From Oligoflexales bacterium (GTDB lineage: Bacteria > Bdellovibrionota_B > Oligoflexia > Oligoflexales > RGVZ01), in contig CANLUT010000001.1 in the NCBI GenBank assembly GCA_947494335.1, positions 1,240,001-1,304,000 on the forward strand: a stretch of DNA of 64,000 nt, in the 5' to 3' direction. Of the stretch, positions 1 to 16,430 are shown one piece after another (positions within the stretch are counted from its first letter, which is position 1; the number at the start of each line of letters is the position of its first letter). A program made the position numbers and the translations under genes. The notes below the pieces were generated by a model that searched no databases, was not told where the DNA came from, and saw only the letters and a list, made by a program, of their open reading frames with translations.

Positions 1-2562
1 CAACGGACATGCCTGTGACACACCCATTGCCACTCTGTTGCTCGCGCTATTGACGTTTGCCACCAAGTTCGGTGTCGCAGCACTGGATGCAAAGGCTGGG
101 TGCAAGTGATGAATAGTTCCACGCTTAATGATCAATTTGTCAGACGTATGGGCATGTGGAGTGGCGCGACTTACGATATCGCCCAATGGACCCGTAAATG
201 TCAGACCCGAACCGCGAGACGCTATAGCAGGCTGTTGTGTACCAATAGCCTTCAAGTCAACCTGCAAGAATCTCCAGTCTTGAGGGTTGCCCGAACTAAA
301 TGTATCTGTATTTTGACCAGAGTAGAGGCATAACTGTCCAGGAACGTCGATGACACCGCCAGAGGTCAACATCAACTTGGAATACCAATCCTTGATCGGC
401 AGACCAGAGCCGGACCCATCATCGTATGCGTAGCCACCACCATCGCTAGCAACTGCTCCAGGGATCACAAAGGATGGACTGTATGGACCTGGATAATCAG
501 GCTTGTTGTGATTTAGGTAATAATCACGTGACTGCATGCCTTCTGCCATAGCTGTGATGAAATCGAAATCCATTGCTTTTAAGTCTGCAACACCGGATGG
601 ATTCGCATTATTTGCTTTAATGAGTTTTAAAGCGACGATGTTTGAGCTTGGATAATTGCTCACCAAATTGTGCTTGCGGTCGTGGAGGAAAATCTTGACC
701 TTATTACACACTCCAGCCGTAATGTTTGAATTATTTACCGTAGCATCTGACGCATTATAAACTTTTGTCTCAACGTGTTCGACCAAACCCGGCACGATTT
801 GGAACCACGGTGAAGGCCAGCTAATCCATGCTGGATTGTTTTGCGAACGAACCACTGCATATCCCTGTCCCACGCGATTTTGCGGCACATAAACCGCTGT
901 ATAGAGAAACGGTGTTGCCTTGAATGCTGAGGTTTCGATGATTGATGCATCAGTGGCATCTTTCGGATTGTAGAATTTCTTAGGCGTAGCCAACAAGCCT
1001 GCCGCTGGTGATGCGTTCGCAACAAACAAATCATCCACAGCATAGGAGTATCCCGAAGCCCAGTTTCCGATTTCTTGATCGTAAATTCCCTCAAGGCTAT
1101 TGCTGCTGTTGCTAAATCCTTCAAAAATCAGCTGATCGTTCGTGATATCAGCATTGCGCAGATAGTTTCCAGCAATGTCGGTTACGGCTACTGCAAGAGC
1201 GATTTCCTCGGTAGCTTTCTTTTCCCCAAATCCAGTCGGACGTTTTGTGGCCGTCTCTACAACAGCCCCTTGTGTCGGTCCACCTATCTTACTTGCAAAG
1301 AACAGGCGCGCCGCCACCGTATCTGCAACGACATCAAATATTTGATTATTCGACGACAACCCGCCCTCACCAGGCAGCACAACTGCCATGGTAGGTTCCG
1401 ATAAGGCGTCGGTGAAATAATAGTCGTTTGGAAGTGAACAGACACCCTCATTGAATGTACACGTGAAGGTTCCGTTGGGCACGCTTGCTTTGACATAGCC
1501 CCAGCTGCGCTCTGCTGCAGTTGTAAACGTCAAACTTCGAGCACCTGAATAAGTACGAGAGTCTACCCCTGCATCATCAACAGCATGGACAAACACCTTA
1601 AATGTCTTACCTGCGGTGACGGCAGCTGGTATAGTTGTGATACCGTTCGACTCACGAAGCTCAATAACAAATCTCGTTGCAATACCTGAAAGGAAAGAAA
1701 TCTCGGGAGACAGTGCCGTGCTAATCGCAATTGAATCAGGAATTGCCAACACGCGACCAGTGCCAGAGATACCAGCTGACTTCAAGATTGTGCTTGCTCC
1801 TGCTTTAGTCTGCAAGCTTCTATGAGTTCCGCAATATAACCGGTTACCCACAGGCTGATTCGTTGGTCCAACGTCAGGCACTGGACAATCCTGTGCTGTT
1901 GCGTAAGAAGACGTCTCAGCCCTTAAAAGATCAATCGCTGCTGTCAGTCCAGATCCGGCTGCGTCTGCATCATTGAAGGACGATCTGACACCCCAGAACT
2001 TCGATGGAATATCGGCTGTGTAGTTAGCACCCGCATCGTATCCTGCGACAAAAAACGAATACTGCTGGTCATTGGATAGCTCTTGAGGCGACGTTAAAGA
2101 CTTCCAAATGGTTCCTTTTCCACCGGCCTCCTGACGGAGTAATGACTGCGACGTTGGGCCTGGGACAATCGTTAACTGTATTGGTTTGCGCATATTGAGA
2201 GCGCCGTCTGTATCACTAACCAACATAATCTTCGGATGAAGTTCAGCTGGGCCTGCTGTCACATCAGGAACTTTAGAGACCACAAAAGATCCTGGGGTCG
2301 TACCCGTTCCGTTCGTGATAGTCATGCCCGTCGATGTATAATCCAAGGTCTTAACGATCGTAACGGAATTTGTTACGCCTACAGGCGGAGCTGGCGTGTA
2401 GGTGTTATCCAACTCAAGCTTAACTTTAATCGTTCCTGAGAAACTATTGACTGGATTGTATTTGTCGTCGAATAAGCTGACAAGCCCCTTAAATGGCACT
2501 GTCGCCTGCTCAACCATTACCGTGCCAACGGCGTGCTCTGGCTTGACTTCGATGACTGCGGG
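1..2562 (-). repeat. Giant lipoprotein repeat unit 4 (cut by window edge)
   Basis: This is the N-terminal 854 codons of a further unit, opening with the HGVP landmark at 2560 and ending at the window edge. It contains the histidine cluster at 100-156 (PHAH and HHLH). The expected YWHTHD motif would lie just beyond base 1, so the total number of units is unknown. Confidence 0.8.
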
Positions 2563-5500
2563 CACACCGTGCAGCGCGGTCAGATTCAATGTTGCACTCA
2601 CCGACTGAACACCAGATCCCGCTGGCGAGGCACATGCATTTGCCAAACCACAGATTGGCATCGTAGATGTGTCTGTTAGCTTGAATGTGATACTTACTGC
2701 CTCATCTGACTTGACAATCTTTGTGTGATCACTCGCCATGGTTGGACTTAGAGTATAATCAAAGTCGCTACTACCTGTAAGAGCGACCAACCTCTTCGCT
2801 GCATTCGCCACGGTCGTGCGGTTCGTTCCAGCAAAACCCATCAACGTAGGAACCGTTCCATCTGGCGAGTTACTTGGAGATACTGACTCATTGGTCTTTG
2901 TCCAGTACAATGCCAACTCGCGGTCAGCTGGGTAATAATCCTTGTTCCCGGTGATGTTGCCATACTGATCACGAAGCTTGACCGTAAAGCCGATTGAGTC
3001 GTCTGTCGTGAAATTTGGCTTAGCAGGATCAACGATCCTTGCCACATCCAAAGTTTTGCCCGGACCTGGAATTCCGGTGAAATACAAGGCACTCGTTCCC
3101 ATGGCCACCTGGTCATTGGCGATGGTAACACTCTGAGTACCCGACGTGCGAATGGACGCATCATAGATTTTTGTCGCCAGAGAACGCAGTGTTGTAGTGT
3201 TATTCGTAACTTGTGTAATCTGTCCAGATGGCAGCGAGCTATTTAAAGTAATTCCGGACGCCGATCCTGGAGAAATGTAGTTATGAGCGGAGTCGTGTGT
3301 ATGCCAGTAAACAGTTTGGATGCCGCAACGGCCAATTCCTGTGTGACAAACGTTTTCAACACCAATTTTGACAGGAGCCTTTTGAGCATCGTTATAGTTT
3401 GCGACGAGATCAGGCGTCATCATGTCGTTATCAGTAAATGTCGCATGCAAGTGGTGTTTTGCACCACGAAGAATCGTAAACTTATCACCATGGCTATGCG
3501 CTGTCGCAACACTGCCGCGGTCCGCATTTCCTGGACCCTTATAGACAATGCCTGCACCACGGGACGTCAGTGCTGGGAAGTTACCGGCGGTAAATGCATT
3601 ACTTGGCAGGTCAACCTGAAGAATCCGCTGCGTCGATGGATTTAGCTGCGGCTGATTGGCCGCTGTCTGGCCCGAATAGAGACAAACTGAGCCAGGCATG
3701 ACGATCTCACCAGCAGATGCCGCCACTTGACCAGACCACCAGTCTTTGATCTCTAGACCCGTGAATGCAGGATGTGTGAATATGAAATTACCACCGGAAT
3801 TGGCGGCAGCACCGACAATCTTAAACGCGGAGTTGAAAGGACCTGGGATTTCCGGAGCGTTACGTGTTTTGTAATAGTCACGAGCAGCATCATCACCCGA
3901 TTGCATGGTCGAGATATACGAGAAATCACCGGCATAGGGGTCATCCATGCCCGTTGGATTCGCCGCGTCTATTTTGAAAAGTTTCAATCCAACTTGTGTG
4001 GTGCCGGTATAATCAGTTCGCAAGTTATGCTTTTTATCATGCACGAACACACGCACTTTGTTACATTCGCCAGCAACAACGTTACCGTTATTGCGGGCCG
4101 CATTGTTTGGATCAAATAAAACCGTCTCAACGTGCTCAATAGCACCCGCAGTCACTGTTATCAAAGGAGATGGCCAGGTTTTGAGAGTTCCTGACTTCAC
4201 GACAGCGAAACCGCTGCCGATTCTATTTTGAGGGACATAAACTGTATTGTACGCTCCAGTGACCTTAAATGCAGCAGTTGCTATCGATGCCCCCTCGGTC
4301 GACGGATCGTAAAACTTCTTGGCCGTTGGCAAGAGACCAGAAAGTGGACTTGAATTAGCCACAAAAAGATCACTCACAGTGTATGGCGTCAACCAATCTC
4401 CGGTTGCAGCGTCGAATAGACCTGAAAGATTACTGGATGACGCACTCAAGCCCTCATAGACAAGGTTGTCGTCCGATGTTGCTTCTCCGATATAGTTACC
4501 ACCAGCGTCTGTAATGACGACGACGAATGCTTTCTCCTGATCCGCTGTTAAGGAAATACCACCAGGCACGGTGCCAGGCGTTTGAACTTTAGCTCCTGCG
4601 TTCGGACCACCATTCTTATCCGCAAAATAAATTCGTGCGGCAGCCGACGCAGTGGCAGGAACTGCTGTCGAGGCAGAAGGAATCGTGGTTGTGGGGCTAG
4701 TCTGGGTCACCCGCACCGTTGCATCGTTCACGACGGGGGTTACGGTTGTATTTTTTATAGTCGTAACGACATAACTGCCTGGCAGCGTACAAACACCACT
4801 TGCGAATGTACAACTAAGAGATCCAGTTGGCAGCGTCGGTGAAAGTTGACCAAAACTCTGCGGTCCAGAGGATTCGACATTGAATGTCTTCGAACCCGTA
4901 TAAGTCACAGCAATGGTCTCTGTGCTATCGCGCGCCTGAATGCGAATATTAAACGGCGTACCGGCTGGAATTCCACTTGCATAAATTGAATCTGTCGTCG
5001 CATCGCGGAACTCAAAGGTGAAATGATCAGCGGCACCAGCCTCAAAGCTCATCAATGGAGACAGCGTGGCTTTCGCGCCACTATTAGGAATAGCGATGAT
5101 TTTACCCGGGCCAAAGTTTCCTACTGACTTGAACTGGGACATAGTACCGGTGCTTGTCAACAATCCACGATGGATGCCACAGAAAATCGTCGCAAACAGA
5201 GCCGCAGGCTCGCCAGGATCGGGGCATTCTTCAGGCGTTAAATAATTTCCTGGTACTTTTCCGCTCAGCAACGTGACCGCAGCATTGAAGCCCGACCCGA
5301 CTGGGTCATTGTCATCGAGATTTTGATTCACACCAAAGAATTTACCCTCGACATCTTGTTTGAAGTTTGCAGCTGCGTCGTAGCCGGCCAAATACCAACG
5401 GTAGTTCGCGTCATTGTTAATTGTTATCTGTCCCAAATCTTTCAGGATTGATCCCTGACCACTCCCTGCGTCTCGCAGGACCGTCTGTGTCACTGGACCT

Positions 5501-8500
5501 GGAACGATGGTCACTATTGTTGGATTTCTTAGGGTTAGGCCTGCCGACACGTTTCCAAGAACAATCTTCGGATGCTGTTCGCCTGCACCAGCATTAGGAA
5601 CTTTAAGAACCGTGAACTCTTGTGTGGTTGTACCCTGGCCGCCTGCAATTGTGATCGGCGTACCGGTGTGATCAAGCTCAGAATTAGCCGTGGCAGTAAC
5701 GCTAAGACCCGTTGGAGGTACAGGTGTGTAAATCTGGTCGAGCTTAATCTTCACGCTAAGCGGATCATTGTAGGCGTCTGCTAAATTGTACTTCTCATCA
5801 AATAGGGCCACCTTAACTTTGAATGGAACTGTCGCCTCCTCGATGGCAATTGCTCCATTGATATGCTCGGGCTTCAGCTCGACCACACTTGGCACACCGT
5901 GCTTAGCCGTTAGCGCGATCGATGTGGACACTGCCATCACTCCACCACTTGGAGCCGATGGACATGCGTTAGCCGTTGAACACAGAGTGACGGCTGCCGA
6001 ATCGGTCAACTTGAAGTTCAAAGTGACTGGCTCATTTGTTTTCGCCAACTGCGTTGCATCACCGGCAACGGTGCCGCTGAGAGTGTAATCAAACTCAAAT
6101 CCCGGATCCAACGCGACAGACTTCATCACGGCATTTGAGAGTCCTGCGCGGTTACCGCCAACTTGCCCCAGCAATGTTGGCTTTGAACCGTCTGGAGAAT
6201 TTGAAGGGTTTGCCGTCCAATAAGCGGCGATCGTGCGATCAACAGGGTAGTACTCTTTGTTACCAGTGATATTGCCGTATGCATCAAGCAACTCAAGTTT
6301 AAAGCCAATCTTCTCATCAGTGGTGAAGTTCGGCATCGAACCACCAACACGAGTCACCCTTAAGCTTGCGCCGGGTCCCGGAATACCTTTAATGTGCACG
6401 GTTCCAGGATTTGCAGTCGTTGCAGTGTTGCGCGCGGTAATCGAGTGACTTCCAGCCGTGTGAGCTCCGCTTGTATTGTAATAAATCTCTGAATAGGGAG
6501 AACCACCGCCATTGGTTATACTTCTGAATTCTGCTGCAGGAAGAGTGCCAGGAGAGGACGTAAAGCCCAAATCCGAGGTTGCTCCAAAATAGTTGTGCGC
6601 AATATCGTGCGTATGCCAGTAGACCTTTTGGAGACCGCATTTGCCGATTGAAGCAACGCATGGATCGGTCACACCAATTTTCAGAGGATTTTTTGCGGCA
6701 TCATTGTGACTATCAACAAGCACCGCACTGACTGCATTGTCCACGAACGTCGCGTGTAAGTGGTGGGCAGACGTGCGTTTATAGACTGTGAATTTGTCTT
6801 GATGCAGCACATGGGCGGTGGCGGTACTACCGACAGTCGCGCCATTCTTACCAACGAACGTAACGCCCGGTCCGCGAGATACTAGAGCCCGGAAGTTAAC
6901 ACTACCCATGGTGTTTGCTGGCAAATCAACCTGAAGGAATCGCTCAGCAAACGGCTCAGCAGCAACATAGTTAGCAGCGGTTTGGCCGTCGTATAAACAA
7001 ACCGAGCCAGGAACAGCAAATTCGCCAGAGGCGACTGTTACATCACCCGACCACCAGTCTTTGATCGGTAGACTTATGAAATTTGGATGCGTGAAGATAA
7101 AGTTACCACCCGAGCTCGCTACAGCATTCGGAATATCAAATGCCGGGCTGTATGGTCCAGGTAGCTCAGGTGCGTTGTGGGTTGCATAGTAGTCGCGCGC
7201 AGCAGCGTCGCCAGCTTGCATCGCCGTGATCGCCGCAAAGTCACCAGCCTGTGCGTCAGCCACACCTGGCTTCATTAACTTGAGAGCCACTTTCGTAAGG
7301 CCCGAGTAATTTGTAAGGATGTTATGTTTGCGGTCGTGAATAATTACTTTTACTTTATTACACTCGCCAGCAAGGACGTTGGCGTTGTTTCGCGTCGCAT
7401 CTGTGGCGCTGTAAAGAACGGTCTCGGTATGCTCAATCGCACCCGGGGTGACCGTGATCCGCGGTGATGGCCAAGAAATCAGTGAATTAGATTTTACTAC
7501 AGCGTACCCGCTACCTAGGCGATTCTGTGGTACGTACACCGCATCATACAGCGCACCATCTTGCAACGCTGTTGTTTGGATGGCAGGCAAATCAGCAGCG
7601 TCACTCGGGTTGTAGAACTTTTTAGGGGTCGGCACAGCACCATTGGCCGTTGATGGGTCTGCGATAAACAAGTCACTGGCCGTATAGGTACCGGTCCACT
7701 GACCTTGAATACTATCGAAGAGGGACGCGATGTTAGCTGTATCAGATTTATACCCTTCAATGCGTACGAAATCAGCCGCTGTTGCCGCGCGGAGATAGTT
7801 ACCACCAATGTCCGTAACAGCGAGGGCGAAGCCCTTCTCCTCATCAGCTGTAATGGTATATCCTGCCGGAACCGTGTCTGGCGTGAGGACGGTTGCACCA
7901 TCTGCAGGAGCCCCTAGCTTACTTACAAAATAAATTCGAGCGGGATCACTCCTCTGTGTGAATATGTCAAAGGACCAGTCTCCCGGAACACCGCCCGCCG
8001 TGGATTCAGCAACGGTGATCGTTTCCTTTTGATCAAAGTTAGCCACTTTATAACCAACACCGGCAGCCGGACCAGGAATCTCACATACACCGGCGGCAAA
8101 TGTACAGGTCTTCAAACCATTGGGGAGAAAAGCTTTGATTTTACCCCAGCTTGCTACTGGCGTATTTGAAAAATTGAGAACTTTGATTCCATTATAGCTA
8201 ACAGCATCAGCGTTGTTTGAATCCTTCGCATGGACAATAATCCTAAATTGCAGACCAGCAGGAATCGGAGACGACAACGCCTCACCCGTCATCTTCTTAT
8301 ACTCAAGAGTGAAATGAGTCGGCATACCCGTAAAGTCAAAAATTGGTGAGAGTGCAACTGCGATTGAACTTGTCGTAGGAATCGCAAGCAAACGCCCTGG
8401 GCCCTTGTCACCAATCGATACGAATTCAGCCGAGTCGCCTTCGAAATTAATCAAACTTCGGTGCACACCGCAGAACAACTGATTACTTAGCGGCTGGTTG

Positions 8501-11500
8501 GTTGGGTTCGAAGCTGAGTCAGGGTCAGGGCATTGAGCCAGAGGGCCATAATATGCAGGACCGTTTGTATTACCACGCAATGACTGTGCAAAAATATTTA
8601 AGTTGGATAGCCCTGCGGAGTCGTCATTGAATGATGGGGCAATACCCCAGAATTTTGCGGGGACATCCGCATTGTAGTTACCTGCAGCGTCAAATCCAGC
8701 AACATAGAAACGATAGTTCGTGCTCGGAGAGATCGCTAGTCGATCACTGTTCGCAATCGACTTCAAGATGTTGCCACCATTGCGAGCAGCATTACGCAGA
8801 ACGGTCTGAGTGATAGGACCTGGTACAATCGTCACGCGCGTCGGGTTGAGTAGTGTGTAGCCGGCCGTCACATCACCCAACAATATCTGTGGGTGAACTT
8901 CGTTCTGAGCTGCATTCGGAACTTTCTTCACAGTGAATTGTCCCCCGGACAATCCATATCCATTGGATATTGTCATCGGTATCGCAGAGTGATCGATGAC
9001 ATCGACGAGTGAGCTGGTATCCGTGATTCCAGTGACAGACGTGAGGTTTGGCTGGTAAACTGGGTCTAACTTGAATTTGATCGCAAGACTACCCGAGTAT
9101 GTCGTTGCAGGGTTATATTTCGCATCAAACACATTTACATGAACTTTGAACGGGACTGTGGCTTGCTCTTCAAACTTGCTTCCGACCCTATTCTCCGGTT
9201 GAACTTCGATAACCTTGGGCACACCGTGACCCGCATTTAGATTCAGAGATTTTGTAAAGCTCTGTGGACCCGGGTTGTCATCAAGCTTAAAGTTTAAAGT
9301 CAGATTTTCTCCGGCCTTGGCGATTTTGGTCCAATCGGTAGATAACGTTGGACTAAGAGACAGCTCCATCAATTGACCCGTGGTCAGCACAATATTTCGC
9401 GTCACTGGCGAGCTGATGGTGTGCACGCCGCCAACCTCGCCAACCAGAACAGGGGTTACACCGCCAGGCGAGTTTTGCGGATTGGTCGTCCAATAAGCCG
9501 AAAGTCTGCGATCGACAGAGTAATACGTTTTATCACCAGTTACGTTCTCAAACTCGTCGTAAAGCTTGATATCAAATCCCAGAGAGTGATCTGTAGTCAA
9601 TGTCTCGCCTTGTGGGACACCGGTCATGACAGCATCAATGTGATGGCCGGCACCAGCAATACCCTCAAAGTAAAATTTATTTTCTTTAGCACCGAGGGCT
9701 GCATTTTTGACTGTCACATCATGCAGACCTGACTTTCTGGATGCGCCACTATAGATGACCGTCGAGGGTGAACCAAGCACCCCAGGGGCACCCGTAGCCG
9801 CTTGTCCTGCGGGGAGACTAGTCGTTAGATTTAAAGTCCCAGCTGCGGGTCCAATTAAGTTATGGGCCTCGTCGTGACTGTGCCAGTATAGGGTCTGCGA
9901 TCCGCAAATACCACCAGCTGTTGTAATTGACGCAGCACATGACTGATCAACACCAATCTTGACGCGGTGGTTGGTCGCATTGTTGTGACTATCGACCAGC
10001 TTTGGATCAGCTACATCGTCCTGGAAAGCAGCGTGCAGGTGATCTATAGCCTTTCTGAACACCTTGAATGTATCGCCGTTGTTATGCGTGTGGGCCGTCG
10101 CAGAACTTCCCATCTGCACATTACCAGCACCCGTGAAGGTCACACCTGCACCACGAGAAACCAGTTTTGAAAACGCTACCCCGTTAAGCGTCACAGCAGG
10201 TAGTTCAACCTGAAGGACCCGTTCGGTAAATGGAGAAACAGCCCCTGCTGCGTAGCTAGACTGGCCAGAGTACAAACAAACATCTCCCGGCAATTGGAGT
10301 TCACCTTCCACCACCTGGGTAGCCCCAGTCCAGAAGTCTTTTATCGGTAAAGACGTAAATGACGGATGATTGAAGATAAAGTTACCGCCCGACGATGGGT
10401 CAGGATCGACGACGCTAAAGGCGCTATTGTATGGACCAGGAACCTCAGATTTGTTCTGGTCTGCATATAGATCACGAGCCGCAGAGGTGCTCTGCTTCAG
10501 ACCGTAAATAAAATCAATGTCTCCACCTTTGGTATCAGCAGCACCAACTTTAAAGAGTTTAAACACAACCTTTGACACTGGGGTCGTATAGGTTGTGATG
10601 ACGTTGTGCTTTTTGTCGTGAAGAAAGACTTTAACCTTGCTGCATGAGCCAGCCTGGATTGCACTGTTGTTGGGTGTCGCATCCGATGGACTGGTCATCG
10701 CAATCGTCTCAATATGCTCAACATCACCAAAGTTGATCGTGATCAGTGGCGACGGCCAGGCAATGAATGTAGGATTCGCCGTCGATTTAATGACTGCAAA
10801 TCCGCGACCTGTGCGATTTTGTGGAATCAAAACTGTTGAGTATAAATTTACATTTTCATAAGCTGAATTTTCGATGATCGCTTGATCGGCTGTGACGGCC
10901 GGATCATAAAACTTCTTGGGCGTCGCAGCGCCTGCCACAAACAAGTCACTTTCTGTAAACTGAGGCACGCTATTATCGTATGCCTTCCAATCGCCTGTCA
11001 GATAGTTGAATTGATCGGCATAGGTTCCGTTTGTGGTGGCAAATCCAGAGTAGGATAGACCGTCACCGCCATCGGCGTTCCGAAGGAAGTTACCTGCGAT
11101 ATCCGTCACCGCAACGGCAAAAGGCATTTCCTCGGTTGTCTTCATAGACAAGCCAGCAGCAGTCGTCTCGGGTGTCAGAGCTTTCGCGCCGGCATCTGGG
11201 CCACCTTTTTTATCGGCGAAGAAATAGCGGCCAGCCACACCAACTTGCACAGGGACCAAGTCACTGTATGCTCCGCCCGGGGACGGGTTAACTCCAGCAT
11301 CCCATGATAAAAGCTGAACCGTGACTGATGTGTCCGGCGTGGTTGGAAAGGTTGCTGCAGGGTGGCTTGCGGCCGAGAACCAGTAAGGGCCGCCCGGCAA
11401 GGTACATTTACCGTTTTCAAAGGTACATTCCAAATCACCATTGGGAAGCTTTGGCGCCATACCAGCCCAGCTCTTTGGCAAGGTGCTCACAACTTTAATT

Positions 11501-13977
11501 TTACGCGCCTTACCGTAGGTCGGATGAGCATCGGGATAAGAAGGAACATCGATATTACTTCCGTCTTTTGCGTGAAGCACAATTTGGAATGCTTCACCCG
11601 CTGTGATCGGGAATCTGGCTGGTGTCGCTGTGTCTGGACGCACCGCCTCGCGCAACGTAGAGCTGTCTGAGGCTTTCACAAACTCGATAGCTAATTTCTC
11701 AGCGCGACCAGCTGTCGTCGAAAGTGGACGCGACACGTTCCATGCGACGGTCGGATAAGCAAGCGGCAGGGCGATAACTCGTCCGCTACCCGCTACACCC
11801 GCGGAGTTGTAAGTTGAGTTCTTTCCTGCTTTGACGGCTAGACCAAGGTGAATGGCGCAAGCCATGACATCTGAGTTGACAGTAGCTCCATTGCCCGGAC
11901 AATTACTGGTCGACGTAAAGGCTGAAGGGTTGCCAGGAATAAGTTGGGCCACGGCCGACTCGATGGCTCCATCGGGCAGAGTGTCATCGAAGACGTGTGC
12001 ATCGTTCAAAGCATCGCTGATGCCCCAAAACTCACTATCCACATCTTCTTTGTAGTTTCCGCCTGCATCATAGCCGGCGTTGAAGAATGTAAATGTCTGA
12101 TCGTTTGGCAGAGGCTTTACGTCGGCACCACGCCAAGTTTCGCCCTTACCATCTGTCGCCGTTCTCAAGACGGTCTGCGTTACAGGACCAGGAGACAATG
12201 AGATCGTTAGGGGATCCCGAACTTGGACTTCAGATACTGGAGCTGACGTATTCGCTAATATGAACGAATTGTTGACAAGGTTGATCTTCGGACCTTGCTG
12301 AGGCGTTCCGAGAACTGAATCATTCACGGCGGGATCAGGAACTCTTAACACGTTGAATTTCTCAACAGTCTGTGCCCTACCCGCAACAATGACTAATGGA
12401 TTTGTATCGTGATCGATGATGCTATTGGCCTCTGCCATTACGCGCAAGCCTGCAAGAGTCATAACCTCCTTAGCGGGAGGAGCGTAAACTGGAGATAACT
12501 GCAACTTCAACTTGATATCGCCATTAAAGTTGTCGCAAAGGTTACCATTTTTATCGTACAGCACCACGTTTGCTGCAAAGGGGACGGTCGCCTTTTCAGC
12601 GGCAACGCTTCCAACGGTATTCTCCGAGGTGATATTAATCGCTGCGGGTGAACCAGGGTAGACCATGTAAGTGATGGTCCGTTCAATAATCGGGATGGAC
12701 GTGGTTTTGATAATCACTGTTCCTGGCCCAGACAAGATAGGATCGATTGTTTGCATACTTTGACGCAAATTCACCGCGCCGAGACGACCGCTTAAGCGAC
12801 CGCTGTCAACCCAGTCTGTATCCATCGTGCTGACAAAGTTGCCACCCGCATCCACCAAAACAGGATAGTATTTGTAAGAGTCGCCGGAAACCATAGAGAG
12901 ACACTCGCGCGACGCGTCGTTGATCTCGTTACAAACGTCTTGGATCGGCTGATCTGGTGGATTTTTAGATAAGACAATTCGCGATGCGTCACCAGTAACG
13001 ACCGGAATTCTGATAGAGGCCGTCTTGACCGGCAGTTTCGGATTTGTCGGCTTGGCGGTAATCGTGATGATCGTTGGCTTTAGAACTTTGAACGGCGCAC
13101 CCGGAACGAGACACTGATCGTTGAAGAAGTCACAGGAGATATCACTGCCTGTCGCTCCGCCGGGCACGATGACTAATTTGCCATCGACAACGTCGTTGAC
13201 ATTCTCCGTCTTGAAGTTAAAAGAAAATCCTTTTCCAACTTCTGTGTTCGGGATGCCAGGTGCCGTTAACACCACACTGAAAGGTGTGCCGGCTTTGATG
13301 ACTTGTTTGCCGTCTTTGTCGTAAAGAGCAGGCAGGATCATAATGGCAGAATCGAGAGGATCGATACCGCTATTGATGAACTCTTCATTAGAGGTGATAT
13401 CAATTTTGTAATACTGGATAAGATCTGAAGCGAGCGATCCCTGAGGAACCCGCATCGCAACCGCAATTTTTGCCGCTGGCATGTTCGGAGTTGTGAAACC
13501 CACGTGGGCCTGGCCGAACTGGTTGGAAATCGCTGAGCCACCAACGAGAATACCAACACAGTTTTCGCGGTAAGCTCCCGCCATGCAGGTTGTTCCAGCT
13601 AAGGTGCCATCTGCTTGCATGACAAAATCACCGCCGTTCCAGCCGGCAAGAATTTTCTCTTTAATCACATTCTCCGGAAGACCTGCGTTGACTGCGTCTG
13701 TAATTAAGAAAGCTTTAAACTCAGCCTGTACGCCTGGAATCGCCTGTCCTGATTTACTTTTGACTGTGTAGTAAAGATTTTTCGTGAGTTTAAAATTCGG
13801 CGGATACGGATTTTGTAATTCCGTTGTCTCAGCTTTAAATTCAGAACCTGATTTTGCCTGATTTGCCGTCTTTGTTCCTTTGGAGCAGGCAGCAGATACA
13901 AACATGACCCCAGCCAACGCCGCCACAAAGGACACGCGAAGTCCTAACATGCTAAAGATGTTAAGTTTTTGCCCCAT
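1..13977 (-). CDS. Giant repeat-containing surface lipoprotein (partial, C-terminus off the left edge)
   Basis: A single open frame of 4659 codons starts at the ATG at 13977-13975 and is still open at base 1. I checked the frame line by line at the left end and by sampling elsewhere. AAGG lies a few bases upstream of the start. The N-terminus is a signal peptide ending in a lipobox-like SAAC (Cys at about residue 31), so a lipid-anchored exported protein is predicted. After about 440 N-terminal residues the protein consists of tandem units of about 1110 residues. Each unit holds several beta-rich, bacterial-Ig/invasin-like segments, such as recurring FFVAGYDAGANY-type and VPQNRIGSGFAVVKS-type strings. 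Each complete unit also holds three His-rich motifs (AHxH, HHLH or HLH, and YWHTHDxAHN). A giant adhesin, stalk or envelope-spanning filament is the natural inference; no catalytic domain was recognised. It is divergent from the PEGA lipoprotein gene. Translation from raw sequence was manual, so isolated residues may be wrong. Confidence 0.9.
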   Translation of the reverse strand, partial: MGQKLNIFSMLGLRVSFVAALAGVMFVSAACSKGTKTANQAKSGSEFKAETTELQNPYPPNFKLTKNLYYTVKSKSGQAIPGVQAEFKAFLITDAVNAGLPENVIKEKILAGWNGGDFVMQADGTLAGTTCMAGAYRENCVGILVGGSAISNQFGQAHVGFTTPNMPAAKIAVAMRVPQGSLASDLIQYYKIDITSNEEFINSGIDPLDSAIMILPALYDKDGKQVIKAGTPFSVVLTAPGIPNTEVGKGFSFNFKTENVNDVVDGKLVIVPGGATGSDISCDFFNDQCLVPGAPFKVLKPTIITITAKPTNPKLPVKTASIRIPVVTGDASRIVLSKNPPDQPIQDVCNEINDASRECLSMVSGDSYKYYPVLVDAGGNFVSTMDTDWVDSGRLSGRLGAVNLRQSMQTIDPILSGPGTVIIKTTSIPIIERTITYMVYPGSPAAINITSENTVGSVAAEKATVPFAANVVLYDKNGNLCDNFNGDIKLKLQLSPVYAPPAKEVMTLAGLRVMAEANSIIDHDTNPLVIVAGRAQTVEKFNVLRVPDPAVNDSVLGTPQQGPKINLVNNSFILANTSAPVSEVQVRDPLTISLSPGPVTQTVLRTATDGKGETWRGADVKPLPNDQTFTFFNAGYDAGGNYKEDVDSEFWGISDALNDAHVFDDTLPDGAIESAVAQLIPGNPSAFTSTSNCPGNGATVNSDVMACAIHLGLAVKAGKNSTYNSAGVAGSGRVIALPLAYPTVAWNVSRPLSTTAGRAEKLAIEFVKASDSSTLREAVRPDTATPARFPITAGEAFQIVLHAKDGSNIDVPSYPDAHPTYGKARKIKVVSTLPKSWAGMAPKLPNGDLECTFENGKCTLPGGPYWFSAASHPAATFPTTPDTSVTVQLLSWDAGVNPSPGGAYSDLVPVQVGVAGRYFFADKKGGPDAGAKALTPETTAAGLSMKTTEEMPFAVAVTDIAGNFLRNADGGDGLSYSGFATTNGTYADQFNYLTGDWKAYDNSVPQFTESDLFVAGAATPKKFYDPAVTADQAIIENSAYENVNLYSTVLIPQNRTGRGFAVIKSTANPTFIAWPSPLITINFGDVEHIETIAMTSPSDATPNNSAIQAGSCSKVKVFLHDKKHNVITTYTTPVSKVVFKLFKVGAADTKGGDIDFIYGLKQSTSAARDLYADQNKSEVPGPYNSAFSVVDPDPSSGGNFIFNHPSFTSLPIKDFWTGATQVVEGELQLPGDVCLYSGQSSYAAGAVSPFTERVLQVELPAVTLNGVAFSKLVSRGAGVTFTGAGNVQMGSSATAHTHNNGDTFKVFRKAIDHLHAAFQDDVADPKLVDSHNNATNHRVKIGVDQSCAASITTAGGICGSQTLYWHSHDEAHNLIGPAAGTLNLTTSLPAGQAATGAPGVLGSPSTVIYSGASRKSGLHDVTVKNAALGAKENKFYFEGIAGAGHHIDAVMTGVPQGETLTTDHSLGFDIKLYDEFENVTGDKTYYSVDRRLSAYWTTNPQNSPGGVTPVLVGEVGGVHTISSPVTRNIVLTTGQLMELSLSPTLSTDWTKIAKAGENLTLNFKLDDNPGPQSFTKSLNLNAGHGVPKVIEVQPENRVGSKFEEQATVPFKVHVNVFDAKYNPATTYSGSLAIKFKLDPVYQPNLTSVTGITDTSSLVDVIDHSAIPMTISNGYGLSGGQFTVKKVPNAAQNEVHPQILLGDVTAGYTLLNPTRVTIVPGPITQTVLRNAARNGGNILKSIANSDRLAISPSTNYRFYVAGFDAAGNYNADVPAKFWGIAPSFNDDSAGLSNLNIFAQSLRGNTNGPAYYGPLAQCPDPDSASNPTNQPLSNQLFCGVHRSLINFEGDSAEFVSIGDKGPGRLLAIPTTSSIAVALSPIFDFTGMPTHFTLEYKKMTGEALSSPIPAGLQFRIIVHAKDSNNADAVSYNGIKVLNFSNTPVASWGKIKAFLPNGLKTCTFAAGVCEIPGPAAGVGYKVANFDQKETITVAESTAGGVPGDWSFDIFTQRSDPARIYFVSKLGAPADGATVLTPDTVPAGYTITADEEKGFALAVTDIGGNYLRAATAADFVRIEGYKSDTANIASLFDSIQGQWTGTYTASDLFIADPSTANGAVPTPKKFYNPSDAADLPAIQTTALQDGALYDAVYVPQNRLGSGYAVVKSNSLISWPSPRITVTPGAIEHTETVLYSATDATRNNANVLAGECNKVKVIIHDRKHNILTNYSGLTKVALKLMKPGVADAQAGDFAAITAMQAGDAAARDYYATHNAPELPGPYSPAFDIPNAVASSGGNFIFTHPNFISLPIKDWWSGDVTVASGEFAVPGSVCLYDGQTAANYVAAEPFAERFLQVDLPANTMGSVNFRALVSRGPGVTFVGKNGATVGSTATAHVLHQDKFTVYKRTSAHHLHATFVDNAVSAVLVDSHNDAAKNPLKIGVTDPCVASIGKCGLQKVYWHTHDIAHNYFGATSDLGFTSSPGTLPAAEFRSITNGGGSPYSEIYYNTSGAHTAGSHSITARNTATTANPGTVHIKGIPGPGASLRVTRVGGSMPNFTTDEKIGFKLELLDAYGNITGNKEYYPVDRTIAAYWTANPSNSPDGSKPTLLGQVGGNRAGLSNAVMKSVALDPGFEFDYTLSGTVAGDATQLAKTNEPVTLNFKLTDSAAVTLCSTANACPSAPSGGVMAVSTSIALTAKHGVPSVVELKPEHINGAIAIEEATVPFKVKVALFDEKYNLADAYNDPLSVKIKLDQIYTPVPPTGLSVTATANSELDHTGTPITIAGGQGTTTQEFTVLKVPNAGAGEQHPKIVLGNVSAGLTLRNPTIVTIVPGPVTQTVLRDAGSGQGSILKDLGQITINNDANYRWYLAGYDAAANFKQDVEGKFFGVNQNLDDNDPVGSGFNAAVTLLSGKVPGNYLTPEECPDPGEPAALFATIFCGIHRGLLTSTGTMSQFKSVGNFGPGKIIAIPNSGAKATLSPLMSFEAGAADHFTFEFRDATTDSIYASGIPAGTPFNIRIQARDSTETIAVTYTGSKTFNVESSGPQSFGQLSPTLPTGSLSCTFASGVCTLPGSYVVTTIKNTTVTPVVNDATVRVTQTSPTTTIPSASTAVPATASAAARIYFADKNGGPNAGAKVQTPGTVPGGISLTADQEKAFVVVITDAGGNYIGEATSDDNLVYEGLSASSSNLSGLFDAATGDWLTPYTVSDLFVANSSPLSGLLPTAKKFYDPSTEGASIATAAFKVTGAYNTVYVPQNRIGSGFAVVKSGTLKTWPSPLITVTAGAIEHVETVLFDPNNAARNNGNVVAGECNKVRVFVHDKKHNLRTDYTGTTQVGLKLFKIDAANPTGMDDPYAGDFSYISTMQSGDDAARDYYKTRNAPEIPGPFNSAFKIVGAAANSGGNFIFTHPAFTGLEIKDWWSGQVAASAGEIVMPGSVCLYSGQTAANQPQLNPSTQRILQVDLPSNAFTAGNFPALTSRGAGIVYKGPGNADRGSVATAHSHGDKFTILRGAKHHLHATFTDNDMMTPDLVANYNDAQKAPVKIGVENVCHTGIGRCGIQTVYWHTHDSAHNYISPGSASGITLNSSLPSGQITQVTNNTTTLRSLATKIYDASIRTSGTQSVTIANDQVAMGTSALYFTGIPGPGKTLDVARIVDPAKPNFTTDDSIGFTVKLRDQYGNITGNKDYYPADRELALYWTKTNESVSPSNSPDGTVPTLMGFAGTNRTTVANAAKRLVALTGSSDFDYTLSPTMASDHTKIVKSDEAVSITFKLTDTSTMPICGLANACASPAGSGVQSVSATLNLTALHGVPAVIEVKPEHAVGTVMVEQATVPFKGLVSLFDDKYNPVNSFSGTIKVKLELDNTYTPAPPVGVTNSVTIVKTLDYTSTGMTITNGTGTTPGSFVVSKVPDVTAGPAELHPKIMLVSDTDGALNMRKPIQLTIVPGPTSQSLLRQEAGGKGTIWKSLTSPQELSNDQQYSFFVAGYDAGANYTADIPSKFWGVRSSFNDADAAGSGLTAAIDLLRAETSSYATAQDCPVPDVGPTNQPVGNRLYCGTHRSLQTKAGASTILKSAGISGTGRVLAIPDSIAISTALSPEISFLSGIATRFVIELRESNGITTIPAAVTAGKTFKVFVHAVDDAGVDSRTYSGARSLTFTTAAERSWGYVKASVPNGTFTCTFNEGVCSLPNDYYFTDALSEPTMAVVLPGEGGLSSNNQIFDVVADTVAARLFFASKIGGPTQGAVVETATKRPTGFGEKKATEEIALAVAVTDIAGNYLRNADITNDQLIFEGFSNSSNSLEGIYDQEIGNWASGYSYAVDDLFVANASPAAGLLATPKKFYNPKDATDASIIETSAFKATPFLYTAVYVPQNRVGQGYAVVRSQNNPAWISWPSPWFQIVPGLVEHVETKVYNASDATVNNSNITAGVCNKVKIFLHDRKHNLVSNYPSSNIVALKLIKANNANPSGVADLKAMDFDFITAMAEGMQSRDYYLNHNKPDYPGPYSPSFVIPGAVASDGGGYAYDDGSGSGLPIKDWYSKLMLTSGGVIDVPGQLCLYSGQNTDTFSSGNPQDWRFLQVDLKAIGTQQPAIASRGSGLTFTGPLGDIVSRATPHAHTSDKLIIKRGTIHHLHPAFASSAATPNLVANVNSASNRVAMGVSQACPL
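2563..5892 (-). repeat. Giant lipoprotein repeat unit 3 (1110 codons)
   Basis: This complete unit has a 3330 bp period to the following unit. Histidine motifs lie at 3445-3498 (AHSH and HHLH) and 3283-3303 (WHTHDSAHN). Unit 3 resembles unit 2 most closely in order and spacing of motifs. Confidence 0.85.
5893..9219 (-). repeat. Giant lipoprotein repeat unit 2 (1109 codons)
   Basis: This complete unit is bounded by HGVP landmark codons. The period to the next unit is 3327 bp, an exact multiple of three. Histidine motifs lie at 6754-6813 (AHVLH and HHLH) and 6595-6618 (WHTHDIAHN). Protein-level similarity to units 3 and 4 is high (for example AGECNKVK, HDxKHN, KKFYxPS and WPSPxI strings), while the DNA has diverged considerably. 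Confidence 0.85.
9220..12648 (-). repeat. Giant lipoprotein repeat unit 1 (about 1143 codons)
   Basis: This is the first complete coding repeat unit, phased on the conserved (H)GVP/GSP proline codon: 12646-12648 here and 9217-9219 in the next unit. It differs most from the others, is about 33 codons longer, and carries GSP instead of HGVP at the landmark. Its histidine motifs lie at 10033-10092 (AHTH and HLH) and 9862-9885 (YWHSHDEAHN). The unit phase is arbitrary. Confidence 0.8.
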
Positions 13978-14094
13978 TCTTACCTTCTGCGAGCTCCAAA
14001 ACTCCTTTGACACCAGCGACTTAGAGCCTTTTCGGGCACTAATCCGCCATGTAATGATGCTCGGTTCAGCTTTAAAGTAACTTTAGCCCGGGGG

Positions 14095-14130: not shown

Positions 14131-14195
14131 AGTTAGCAAAAAAATTTTTGGTGATTTCTAAAGTTTTTGCGGGGTTACCCGAGGGGGCGCAACCG

Positions 14196-14792
14196 ATGGC
14201 TAAGGGGTTAGTCTCAAAGTTACTTTTGCCGGCCTTTATTATTTTTGCCAACGCCTGTGCGGGCACTCTCAATGTCCGAACAAACCCGAGTGAGGCGGAA
14301 CTTGTACTGGTCCAACCGGGAAAAGTCGACTCCAAGCCGCTTGGTAAAACTCCCTACACTGCCAAAATCAGTGACCTGGGTTCTGCGGCTAATGGCGGAC
14401 CCATCGTGCTGCAGGTCTCAAAAAAGGGCTTTATGCCGCAGAGCCTTTACATACCGAATGCCGCGGGCTCAAAACTTGATTTCGATGTGAATCTTAAACC
14501 AGTCAGCCCGGGTAGCTTTGATGAGATGAATCGTATCATTAAACTGGTTTTGGCTGCCGAGCGACAAATCATGCTCAAACAAGTCGATGAAGCCATCAAG
14601 ACAGCCGACGCGATCAAAGCGATCAACGACAACATTGCCATGGCCTACGAAATTGAGGCGGCTGCTCAATTTGTCAAAGGTGATTTGCAAAAAGCACGTG
14701 TTGCTTGGAATCGGTCACTAGCGATCGACCCGGAAAATCCCGATGCAGCGCGCATGATTAAAACTATCGACGAAAAGCTTGGAACTAAATAA
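14196..14792 (+). CDS. PEGA-domain lipoprotein with helical (TPR-like) C-terminus
   Basis: I chose the ATG at 14196 because a GAGGGGG Shine-Dalgarno sits just upstream and the product (198 aa) then begins with a proper signal peptide ending FANAC, a weak lipobox. Residues 25-105 match the PEGA pattern: GTLNVRTNPSEAELVL, a LGKTPYTAKI turn, and QVSKKGFMPQS. PEGA is a small beta domain common in exported proteins of delta-proteobacteria-like bacteria. The last 90 residues are helical, containing AMAYEIEAAAQFVKGDLQKA and a SLAIDPENPDA segment typical of a TPR helix pair. It is divergent from the giant lipoprotein and co-directional with the barrel protein gene 18 bp downstream. It may be an envelope scaffold; its partner is unknown. 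Confidence 0.75.
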   Translation: MAKGLVSKLLLPAFIIFANACAGTLNVRTNPSEAELVLVQPGKVDSKPLGKTPYTAKISDLGSAANGGPIVLQVSKKGFMPQSLYIPNAAGSKLDFDVNLKPVSPGSFDEMNRIIKLVLAAERQIMLKQVDEAIKTADAIKAINDNIAMAYEIEAAAQFVKGDLQKARVAWNRSLAIDPENPDAARMIKTIDEKLGTK

Positions 14793-14810: not shown

Positions 14811-15461
14811 GTGAGTTATACCCATAAAAACTGCCGAAAGATTGCGATTCGTGCTCTTGTGAGCTTTTCGGTCGCAACGGCGCTTATCACAGCTCGCCCC
14901 TCTATGGCTGCAAGTTTGGTGGGAGAATTCCACGACTCCCATGGGACACTCCGCTTTGGAACAATGAGCTACACTGTCACAGACGGCGCAACTCCCAAAG
15001 CCGGTGGGGGTATGGCCCTGAACTATGAATACTCCAGACAGCTCAATATGAGTTCAGCACTCATCGTTGGATGGCGTCAGGTCACTGACTCTGCTAGTCA
15101 GCGCGACGGGCATCACGCGGCCTACGCTGGCATGCGGATATTCCCGCTGGGACTAGGAATACCGCTCACGTCGTCAATTGGTGACGCAACAATCAGTATG
15201 GACAGCAGTTACAAATATTACGGAGAAGCCTCTCTGGGGCTTGGTCGCCTGCTCTATGAGCCCCAGGGCTCAGCTGATTTGTCGGGTGAAAGCCTTTCAA
15301 TCACTTTTGGCGGCGGAGTATTAATGCACTTCTTCTCGCGGTGGGGTGTGGATTTACAAGTTTTATACCACATAATTCAGGGCCGCGGAGGAACCGCAGA
15401 ATCGATAGCTGTTTCCGGTAGTGGCATATCGATTTTGATCGGAAACAGTTATTTGTTTTAG
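14811..15461 (+). CDS. Predicted outer-membrane beta-barrel protein
   Basis: This 216-residue product is read from a GTG start. It has a signal peptide of about 33 residues ending PSMAA, then alternating amphipathic strands rich in Gly and aromatics (MALNYEYS, SALIVGWR, YYGEASLGLGRLLYE). It ends in Phe (IGNSYLF), the usual C-terminal BAM recognition feature of outer-membrane barrels. At about 180 mature residues it would form an eight-stranded barrel of the OmpA/OmpW size class, but I do not recognise a named family. It sits 18 bp after the PEGA lipoprotein gene and 15 bp before the carbonic-anhydrase-like gene, so an operon is likely. Confidence 0.65.
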   Translation: MSYTHKNCRKIAIRALVSFSVATALITARPSMAASLVGEFHDSHGTLRFGTMSYTVTDGATPKAGGGMALNYEYSRQLNMSSALIVGWRQVTDSASQRDGHHAAYAGMRIFPLGLGIPLTSSIGDATISMDSSYKYYGEASLGLGRLLYEPQGSADLSGESLSITFGGGVLMHFFSRWGVDLQVLYHIIQGRGGTAESIAVSGSGISILIGNSYLF

Positions 15462-15476: not shown

Positions 15477-16430
15477 GTGGATATTAAGTTTAAAGGCTTC
15501 GATCAAATCACAGCCTGGGTGGGCGGAATCGGTATTTCCGCACTAATTTTCACGGGGATTTGGTACACCGGAAAAAATATTGCAAAGAACATCACCGCAT
15601 CCGAAGAGAAACGACTTGAAAACGTGCAGAAAGATCTCGAGAAGCTTTCACTTGAACAGCAAAAGGCTGATACAGAAAAGTTAGAAACATCCGAGGCCAA
15701 TTCTGAGAATAAATCAACGTCACACCTCACCCCCGGTCAACCCATTGCTACCGAGGATAGGTGGGGATACAGCGGCAACCTAGCGCCATGGTACTGGGCC
15801 TCGATAAATCCCGAGTGGTCCAATTGTGGCTCAAAAGTAAACCAGTCACCAATTGATATCAGCGGCTCAAGGCTGGACGAAAAGCTCAAGACACTGAAGT
15901 TCAATTACAATCATGGTGAGGCCAGCCTCACATTACGTAACGCTACAGTTCAAGGCGACATTCAATCTGGAAGCTTCATAGAGTGGGATGGTGAGCGATT
16001 TGATCTCACGAGAGTCTTTTTCCGAACTCCCTCTGAACACAGGGTTAATGGACTCCCATGGGAAATGGAAATTCAGCTTGAGCACAAATCAGCGCGCGAT
16101 CAATTGCTCATGGTTTCCGTGCTCGTCACAACCGGCAAGTCCTCTTCGATAATTGCAAACGTTGCGGGCAACCTCCCCCGCTTTCGAGATGACATCAAGG
16201 ACTTTTCCCAACTAAATTGGCATGATTTGCTACCCGGAAAAAAAACCTACTGGAAATACCTCGGAACCTCGACAACGCCTCCTTGCGACCCCAATGTCAC
16301 ATGGGTGGTCATGACCGAACCTGTCACCACAAAAGCCAGCGACATCGACCGATTCGTTAAAATACAGAAGTCAAATGTTCGTCCTGTTTTCTCTCTCGGT
16401 AAGCGCGCGCTCGGGCGAAGTAACCGCTGA
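15477..16430 (+). CDS. Membrane-anchored alpha-carbonic-anhydrase homologue lacking zinc ligands
   Basis: The protein has 317 residues: one membrane anchor (about 12-30), a charged coiled coil (40-75), then an alpha-carbonic-anhydrase fold (93-310). Family hallmarks are clear: WGYSGNLAPWYW, NQSPIDIS, TPSEHRVNG and GTSTTPPCDPNVTWVVM. Aligned by eye to the FHFH and ELHLVH motifs, the three zinc-binding histidines are replaced by Phe181, Arg183 and Gln200. The protein therefore should not bind zinc or hydrate CO2, and resembles eukaryotic carbonic-anhydrase-related proteins, which act as binding scaffolds. The fold would be periplasmic if the anchor is N-in. It overlaps the downstream EamA gene by one base (TGATG), suggesting coupled translation. 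The family call is firm; the loss of activity is inferred. Confidence 0.85.
   Translation: MDIKFKGFDQITAWVGGIGISALIFTGIWYTGKNIAKNITASEEKRLENVQKDLEKLSLEQQKADTEKLETSEANSENKSTSHLTPGQPIATEDRWGYSGNLAPWYWASINPEWSNCGSKVNQSPIDISGSRLDEKLKTLKFNYNHGEASLTLRNATVQGDIQSGSFIEWDGERFDLTRVFFRTPSEHRVNGLPWEMEIQLEHKSARDQLLMVSVLVTTGKSSSIIANVAGNLPRFRDDIKDFSQLNWHDLLPGKKTYWKYLGTSTTPPCDPNVTWVVMTEPVTTKASDIDRFVKIQKSNVRPVFSLGKRALGRSNR

Follow-up and report, generated by a model that had tools for sequence, protein, structure and literature searches.

A giant lipoprotein with five tandem blocks of Ig-like domains and its partial linkage to motor-type genes in the Oligoflexia

A giant open frame and its neighbors

The window analyzed here is a stretch of 64,000 nucleotides from an Oligoflexales bacterium (G000:C1:1240001-1304000). 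Its left end holds the first part of a giant lipoprotein gene that continues beyond the window. The features considered below are as follows, in window positions unless a contig or locus is given.

1..13977, minus strand: giant lipoprotein gene, window part; open frame that reaches its stop codon beyond the window edge, at G000:C1:1228334
13885..13977, minus strand: predicted signal peptide and lipobox VSAA-C with Ser at +2, from sequence; Cys codon at 13885-13887
12697..13884, minus strand: N-terminal region, ~400 aa, holding one copy of Ig-like domain D3 (alignment A2; profile search of 58 genomes)
9268..12696, minus strand: unit 1, 1,143 aa
5944..9267, minus strand: unit 2, 1,108 aa
2614..5943, minus strand: unit 3, 1,110 aa
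3280..3492, minus strand: His/Cys-rich stretch of unit 3, HHLHA...C...C...YWHTHDxAHN (invariant columns of alignment A1)
1..2613, minus strand: unit 4, first 871 aa; the remainder lies beyond the window, up to G000:C1:1239296
1300..1734, minus strand: Ig-like domain D3 of unit 4, modelled (pLDDT 75.9, pTM 0.72)
From the end of unit 4 to G000:C1:1235927, minus strand: unit 5, outside the window
14148..14792, plus strand: PEGA/TPR lipoprotein, lipobox ANAC, divergent from the giant; true start probably an ATG inside the ORF
14811..15461, plus strand: small outer membrane protein (OMP)-like product with a signal peptide and C-terminal Phe; weakly similar to the gene at the same place in genome G052
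L006:3708-4313 (G000:C1:1227708-1228313), minus strand: secreted FKBP-type prolyl isomerase, 20 bp downstream of the giant

The first-pass annotation had described a lipoprotein signal followed by a frame unbroken to the window edge, and had proposed following that frame leftward to its stop. Within the window, the minus-strand frame is open from position 14013 (GTG) or 13977 (ATG, preferred) to base 1. Extension within the same 1.31-Mb contig confirmed the description and showed that the frame continues, with zero internal stops, to a stop codon 11.7 kb outside the window edge. The product comprises 8,559 codons from the GTG or 8,547 aa from the ATG, corresponding to ~896 kDa before processing.

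A Cys-Ser pair at the lipobox was present in all 6 of the relatives compared by alignment, and Ser at +2 is expected to direct the protein to the outer membrane. The −3 residue is atypical, being Ser in the giant and Phe in one relative. The N-terminal region that follows is the most widely conserved part of the giant family, as judged from alignment A2 and the profile search of 58 genomes. Behind the units comes a diverse Ig-like region, in which self-comparison showed other repeats, some of them detectable at lags of 109, 259, and ~665 residues. Matches in the C-terminal region were below cut-off, with Big_13 at an E value of 4.6e-5 and a weak Lcl_C match (E 0.013) in the last 121 aa.

The downstream FKBP-type isomerase may help fold or export the giant chain; it gave weak matches to BamJ and to the gliding protein GldI, both far below cut-off. 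As a separate observation, the gene downstream of the OMP-like one, at positions 15477-16430, encodes an alpha-type (eukaryotic-type) carbonic anhydrase whose N terminus has a membrane-type segment.

Five diverged tandem units are kept by selection on the protein

Self-comparison resolved five tandem units that fill residues ~440-6,030 of the giant, with lengths of 1,106-1,143 aa and offsets of 1,093-1,143 residues. Converted to residues, the periods of 3429, 3327, and 3330 bp read earlier from the DNA agree with spacings between units of 1143, ~1108, and 1110. The units are 40-48% identical to each other over their full length and 34-37% identical to the unit of genome G010, considered below. 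Between units, identity by codon position was 53-59% at position 1, 60-69% at position 2, and 31-35% at position 3. Because positions 1 and 2 are far better kept than position 3, selection acts on the protein, as had been argued from the retained frame over diverged DNA. An assembly artefact was ruled out, since copies are only 40-48% identical and the third codon position is saturated. Thus, neither the artefact nor the in-frame stop that the first-pass annotation had named as evidence against the array was found. A profile match to a characterized family, which it had also named, was likewise not seen: scans of residues 1-4671 against Pfam and NCBIfam gave no model matching the units, and searches of solved structures by sequence gave no match to them.

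Alignment A1 showed eight invariant Cys per unit, which fits the expectation for an exported protein. It also showed a His/Cys cluster (HxH, two Cys, WHxHD) that is invariant in six of six units aligned, including the unit of a single-unit orthologue, and that is, by its residue pattern, a possible metal site. One explanation is that the unit is a single specialized module of ~1,110 residues with an activity of its own (e.g., metal dependent), multiplied by tandem copying. The invariance of the His/Cys cluster would suit such a module, as would the order of the unit, which all five copies and the single-copy orthologue share. We nevertheless consider it very improbable, as the unit has stretches that show homology to one another and to the N-terminal domain outside the units, and no enzyme family was matched in Pfam, NCBIfam, or solved structures searched by sequence.

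The unit is a block of Ig-like domains

Comparison of the unit profile with itself revealed three homologous stretches, at 11-83, 279-349, and 593-665, with E values of 5e-5 to 3e-4. Each carries the motif F-x-V-x(4-6)-D-x(2)-x-N, which was counted by eye seven times per unit; the unit is therefore read as a row of about seven Ig-like domains. One of them, D3 of unit 4, was modelled using seven sequences. Structure comparison of this model with VIA-align put Ig domains from GH2 galactosidases at the top (Z 9.0, with 97 residues aligned at rmsd 2.8), followed by complement, macroglobulin, and filamin domains, and Foldseek returned no match with E < 0.001. As modelled, D3 is an Ig-like beta-sandwich. 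Two further stretches of the unit are homologous to D3, and we infer that the remaining domains are Ig-like as well. Scans with Pfam and NCBIfam placed no curated Big/Ig family above cut-off in the units.

Overall, we conclude from the internal homology and the one modelled domain that the unit is a higher-order block of about seven diverged, ordinary-size Ig-like domains and not a new ~1,110-aa fold. The tandem unit reported in the first-pass annotation is thus real and in frame, and its interpretation as one unusual repeat did not hold. The structure prediction that had been suggested for a whole unit reached a pLDDT of only 35 (AlphaFold2, five sequences), and it was the single domain D3 that gave an Ig sandwich. 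The giant as a whole is very likely an exported multi-Ig lipoprotein, in which probably 50-60 Ig-like domains form a chain that ends in a small tip domain.

A single-unit orthologue points to growth by block duplication

Relatives were sought in 58 genomes of the class, which also made up the whole sample of the phylum. Among the 58 genomes, the unit profile found the full unit only in G000, the genome studied here, and G010, with fragments in G018, G048, G052, and G038, and the N-terminal profile placed the family in 6 genomes of five genera. Since contig ends cut off four of these six genes, failure to find the family in other draft genomes is weak evidence. A scan for named relatives that used a single unit as query found none, and one that used the unit alignment found one, a Lake Erken metagenome-assembled genome (MAG).

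The orthologue in G010, a lake MAG from another family of the order (contig CAIMVM010000252.1), carries just one unit, flanked by the same two ends. Its residues 33-1496, 460-2658, and 2634-4548 align with residues 28-1490, 4921-7092, and 6138-8139 of the giant. It follows that a one-unit protein either gained four block duplications on the G000 lineage or was reduced on the other lineage. Growth of the giant by tandem duplication of the seven-domain block, from one copy to five, is the best explanation. In a unit tree with weak support, units 1 and 5 fall nearest the G010 unit, as expected for the two outer copies.

The giant is linked to PEGA/TPR genes and, in some genomes, to motor-type genes

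The PEGA/TPR and OMP-like pair found next to the giant in the window also stands upstream of the giant in G052, where the PEGA/TPR protein is 34-35% identical and the OMP 24% identical (E 5e-4 to 3e-5). There, a single contig carries the PEGA/TPR, OMP, and giant genes (the last an ORF of 6,945 aa) in a tightly packed run with gaps of 17-35 bp, divergent from genes for a FliG_C/MgtE_N membrane protein, MotA, MotB, X6, and a SpoIIE-type protein. The arrangement is the same in G048, whose OMP is 40% identical to that of G052. The contig of G048 carries the giant, OMP, PEGA/TPR, and FliG genes and that of G038 the giant, FliG, and PEGA/TPR genes, both ending at contig ends, and Pfam identified FliG_C in the FliG-like proteins of both. 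The giant is therefore linked to a PEGA/TPR gene in G000, G048, G052, and G038 and not in G018; in G010, the neighboring position falls at a contig end. Linkage of the giant to FliG_C and MotAB is full in G052 and partial, owing to contig ends, in G048 and G038.

In G000, the one full-length PEGA/TPR gene adjoins the giant, and the motor-type genes lie elsewhere. MotA, MotB, SpoIIE, and an 840-aa FliG-like protein (E 1.3e-17) are encoded together at C1:712-720k with no PEGA/TPR gene. This genome also encodes an ordinary-looking FliG of 341 aa, so the motor-like system exists alongside a flagellar FliG.

A survey of 34 PEGA/TPR genes found them regularly with genes for MotA, MotB, FliG-like, and SpoIIE proteins. 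The FliG-like proteins match FliG in their C-terminal part only, and the charges of the torque helix are kept in just some of them, on a weak alignment. The linked MotA scores best with flagellar MotP/PomA/MotA models. In the G010 cluster, Pfam identified MotA_ExbB, MotB_plug with OmpA, FliG_C, and SpoIIE. More broadly, a cluster of MotA, MotB, a membrane protein of 580-840 aa with a FliG-like cytoplasmic part, a PEGA/TPR lipoprotein, and a SpoIIE-type phosphatase was observed across the class; examples are L053:2-9476 (G052:C218), L075:6153-14479 (G010:C28), and L109:6587-14258 (G000:C1:712-720k). No flagellar operon was seen around this cluster.

Unrelated large lipoproteins occupy the position beside PEGA/TPR genes

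In other genomes, the slot beside the PEGA/TPR gene holds large lipoproteins of other kinds: 2,238 aa with Invasin_D3/Big_1 in G004, which belongs to the genus of G000; 2,202 aa with FN3 and an FGE-sulfatase end in G039; 1,476 aa with Big_13 in G050, 26% identical to residues 7920-8447 of the giant; 1,309 aa with Big_6 and FN3 in G025; and a cadherin-like protein of at least 991 aa in G054. An FN3 lipoprotein of 1,059 aa lies two genes from PEGA/TPR in G014. Under strict automatic rules, a large lipoprotein was found within 2 ORFs of 6 of the 34 PEGA/TPR loci compared with 2 of 246 control ORFs, a comparison in which the control is small, the loci are not independent, and the four neighbors per locus lead to about one expected by chance. 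Adding the loci of G000, G052, and G004, which the rules had missed, by inspection, a step that was not blind, gave 9 of 35. An 834-aa ORF near the PEGA/TPR gene of G055 was rejected, as its N terminus reads by eye as SecA. Other PEGA/TPR-MotAB-FliG loci had no large lipoprotein within the stretch read, and the adhesin may thus be optional. Separately, contig C92 of G004 (L163:1104-11192) was observed to carry the FliG-like, PEGA/TPR, OMP-like, and 2,238-aa invasin-type lipoprotein genes in one run, with MotA divergent.

These loci bear on two other accounts of the giant. It could be a static Ig-like adhesin or a biofilm or attachment protein that has no functional tie to the MotAB/FliG-like genes, its neighborhood being simply a genomic surface-protein locus. 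Large multi-Ig surface proteins are common and adhere without motors, and no motor gene adjoins the giant in G000 or G018. Against this stand the single full-length PEGA/TPR copy adjoining the giant in G000, G048, and G052, the regular membership of PEGA/TPR genes in MotAB/FliG-like clusters elsewhere, and the unrelated large lipoproteins that fill the same slot; we therefore regard a static protein as rather unlikely. The second account, in which the giant faces the periplasm as a structural lipoprotein or molecular ruler, spanning or stiffening the envelope within the rotor or stator scaffold of the motor, draws on the N-terminal lipid anchor and on the periplasmic and envelope parts encoded with the giant, as PEGA and OmpA-type domains act in the envelope. 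It appears improbable, since 8,547 aa of Ig-like domains would extend over ~10 times the width of the periplasm, variation from 1,059 to 8,547 aa between genomes is more than a fixed-gap spacer could accommodate, and the far end looks lectin-like (weak Lcl_C in the giant, FGE-sulfatase in G039).

A proposed adhesin of a non-flagellar motor

Taken together, we think it likely that the giant belongs functionally with the PEGA/TPR-MotAB-FliG system, and we lean, with somewhat less assurance, toward its being the surface adhesin of a trans-envelope, non-flagellar MotAB/FliG-like machine. Counted against the latter are the motor genes of G000, which lie apart from the giant, and the giant of G018, which has no adjoining PEGA/TPR gene. 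The parts of such a machine would be the PEGA/TPR lipoprotein, the small outer membrane protein, a MotA/MotB ion-driven stator, a membrane-anchored FliG-like protein, and the SpoIIE-type phosphatase. The lipid anchor would hold the base of the giant in the outer membrane with the chain displayed outside, and the PEGA/TPR lipoprotein and the outer membrane protein would connect the base with the inner membrane unit of MotAB and the FliG-like protein. Ion flow could then move or tense the adhesin, and binding of the tip to a surface or another cell would lead to gliding or force-driven attachment. We put forward gliding as the outcome of giant and motor only tentatively; powered attachment to prey or particles is another use, and the gene set alone cannot tell the two apart.

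In a broader and equally tentative reading, the class may possess an undescribed machine of its own, in which a MotA/MotB stator and a membrane-anchored FliG-like rotor are coupled by PEGA/TPR and OMP components to interchangeable lipoproteins for gliding or powered adhesion. The 8,547-aa giant would be the extreme case among these large surface lipoproteins.

Known adhesins resemble the giant in role, a likeness that rests on the proposed reading, and fail as families. SprB, the gliding adhesin of Flavobacterium johnsoniae, is about 6,500 aa long and forms a ~150 nm filament (PMC13104615). Both are very long repetitive surface proteins, and in the proposed model an ion-driven motor of the MotAB type would move the giant. 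SprB leaves the cell through the type IX secretion system, whereas the giant has a Sec lipoprotein signal, and an NCBIfam scan found no type IX sorting domain in its C-terminal 1,221 aa. CglB is a lipoprotein. In Myxococcus, it serves the Agl-Glt gliding machine as surface adhesin (PMC13104615). The likeness lies in being the adhesin of a machine driven by MotAB/TolQR-type motors; CglB, however, is a von Willebrand A protein, and the giant gave no such match in Pfam scans. The Agl-Glt machine is not known to include a FliG-like protein. Giant RTX adhesins of the LapA and MpAFP type likewise place hundreds of kilodaltons of Ig-like repeats on the cell surface (e.g., PMC4083281). They repeat one ~100-aa domain and carry a C-terminal signal for export through a type I system, whereas the giant repeats a multidomain block behind an N-terminal lipoprotein signal, and Pfam scans of it found no RTX family.

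AglRS, ExbBD, and TolQR are non-flagellar MotAB homologues that act as ion-driven inner membrane stators (PMC12505986). In contrast, the MotA linked to the giant favors flagellar models and is encoded with a FliG_C protein. In the paper on these homologues, FliG comes up a single time, and solely as the rotor of the flagellum (PMC12505986). A review of gliding calls the motor and adhesins of Bdellovibrio unidentified, and we found no published description of the MotAB-FliG-PEGA cluster in the open-access literature.

The giant illustrates a rare mode of growth, in which a whole seven-domain block was duplicated and the single-copy state is preserved in a relative. The locus offers, within a single cluster, candidate genes for a motor and its adhesin, which, if true, would bear on the use of flagellar motor parts outside flagella. 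The gene length of 8,547 codons, the single-block relative, and the motor-type locus are new relative to the first-pass annotation.

Further motor-type genes in the same genome

Another MotAB pair of G000 lies at C2:140-150k (L112:2-10172) with a TPR protein, a methyl-accepting chemotaxis protein, and a large subtilase lipoprotein. The last, at C2:140k beside MotAB, was considered as a second giant of the family and rejected, being a subtilase with weak Big_13. The genome further encodes an 803-aa FliG-type protein with FliG_M and FliG_C (L094:8398-10806; G000:C1:58.4-60.8k) and a second FliG of 339 aa (L114:8798-9814; G000:C6:44.8-45.8k).
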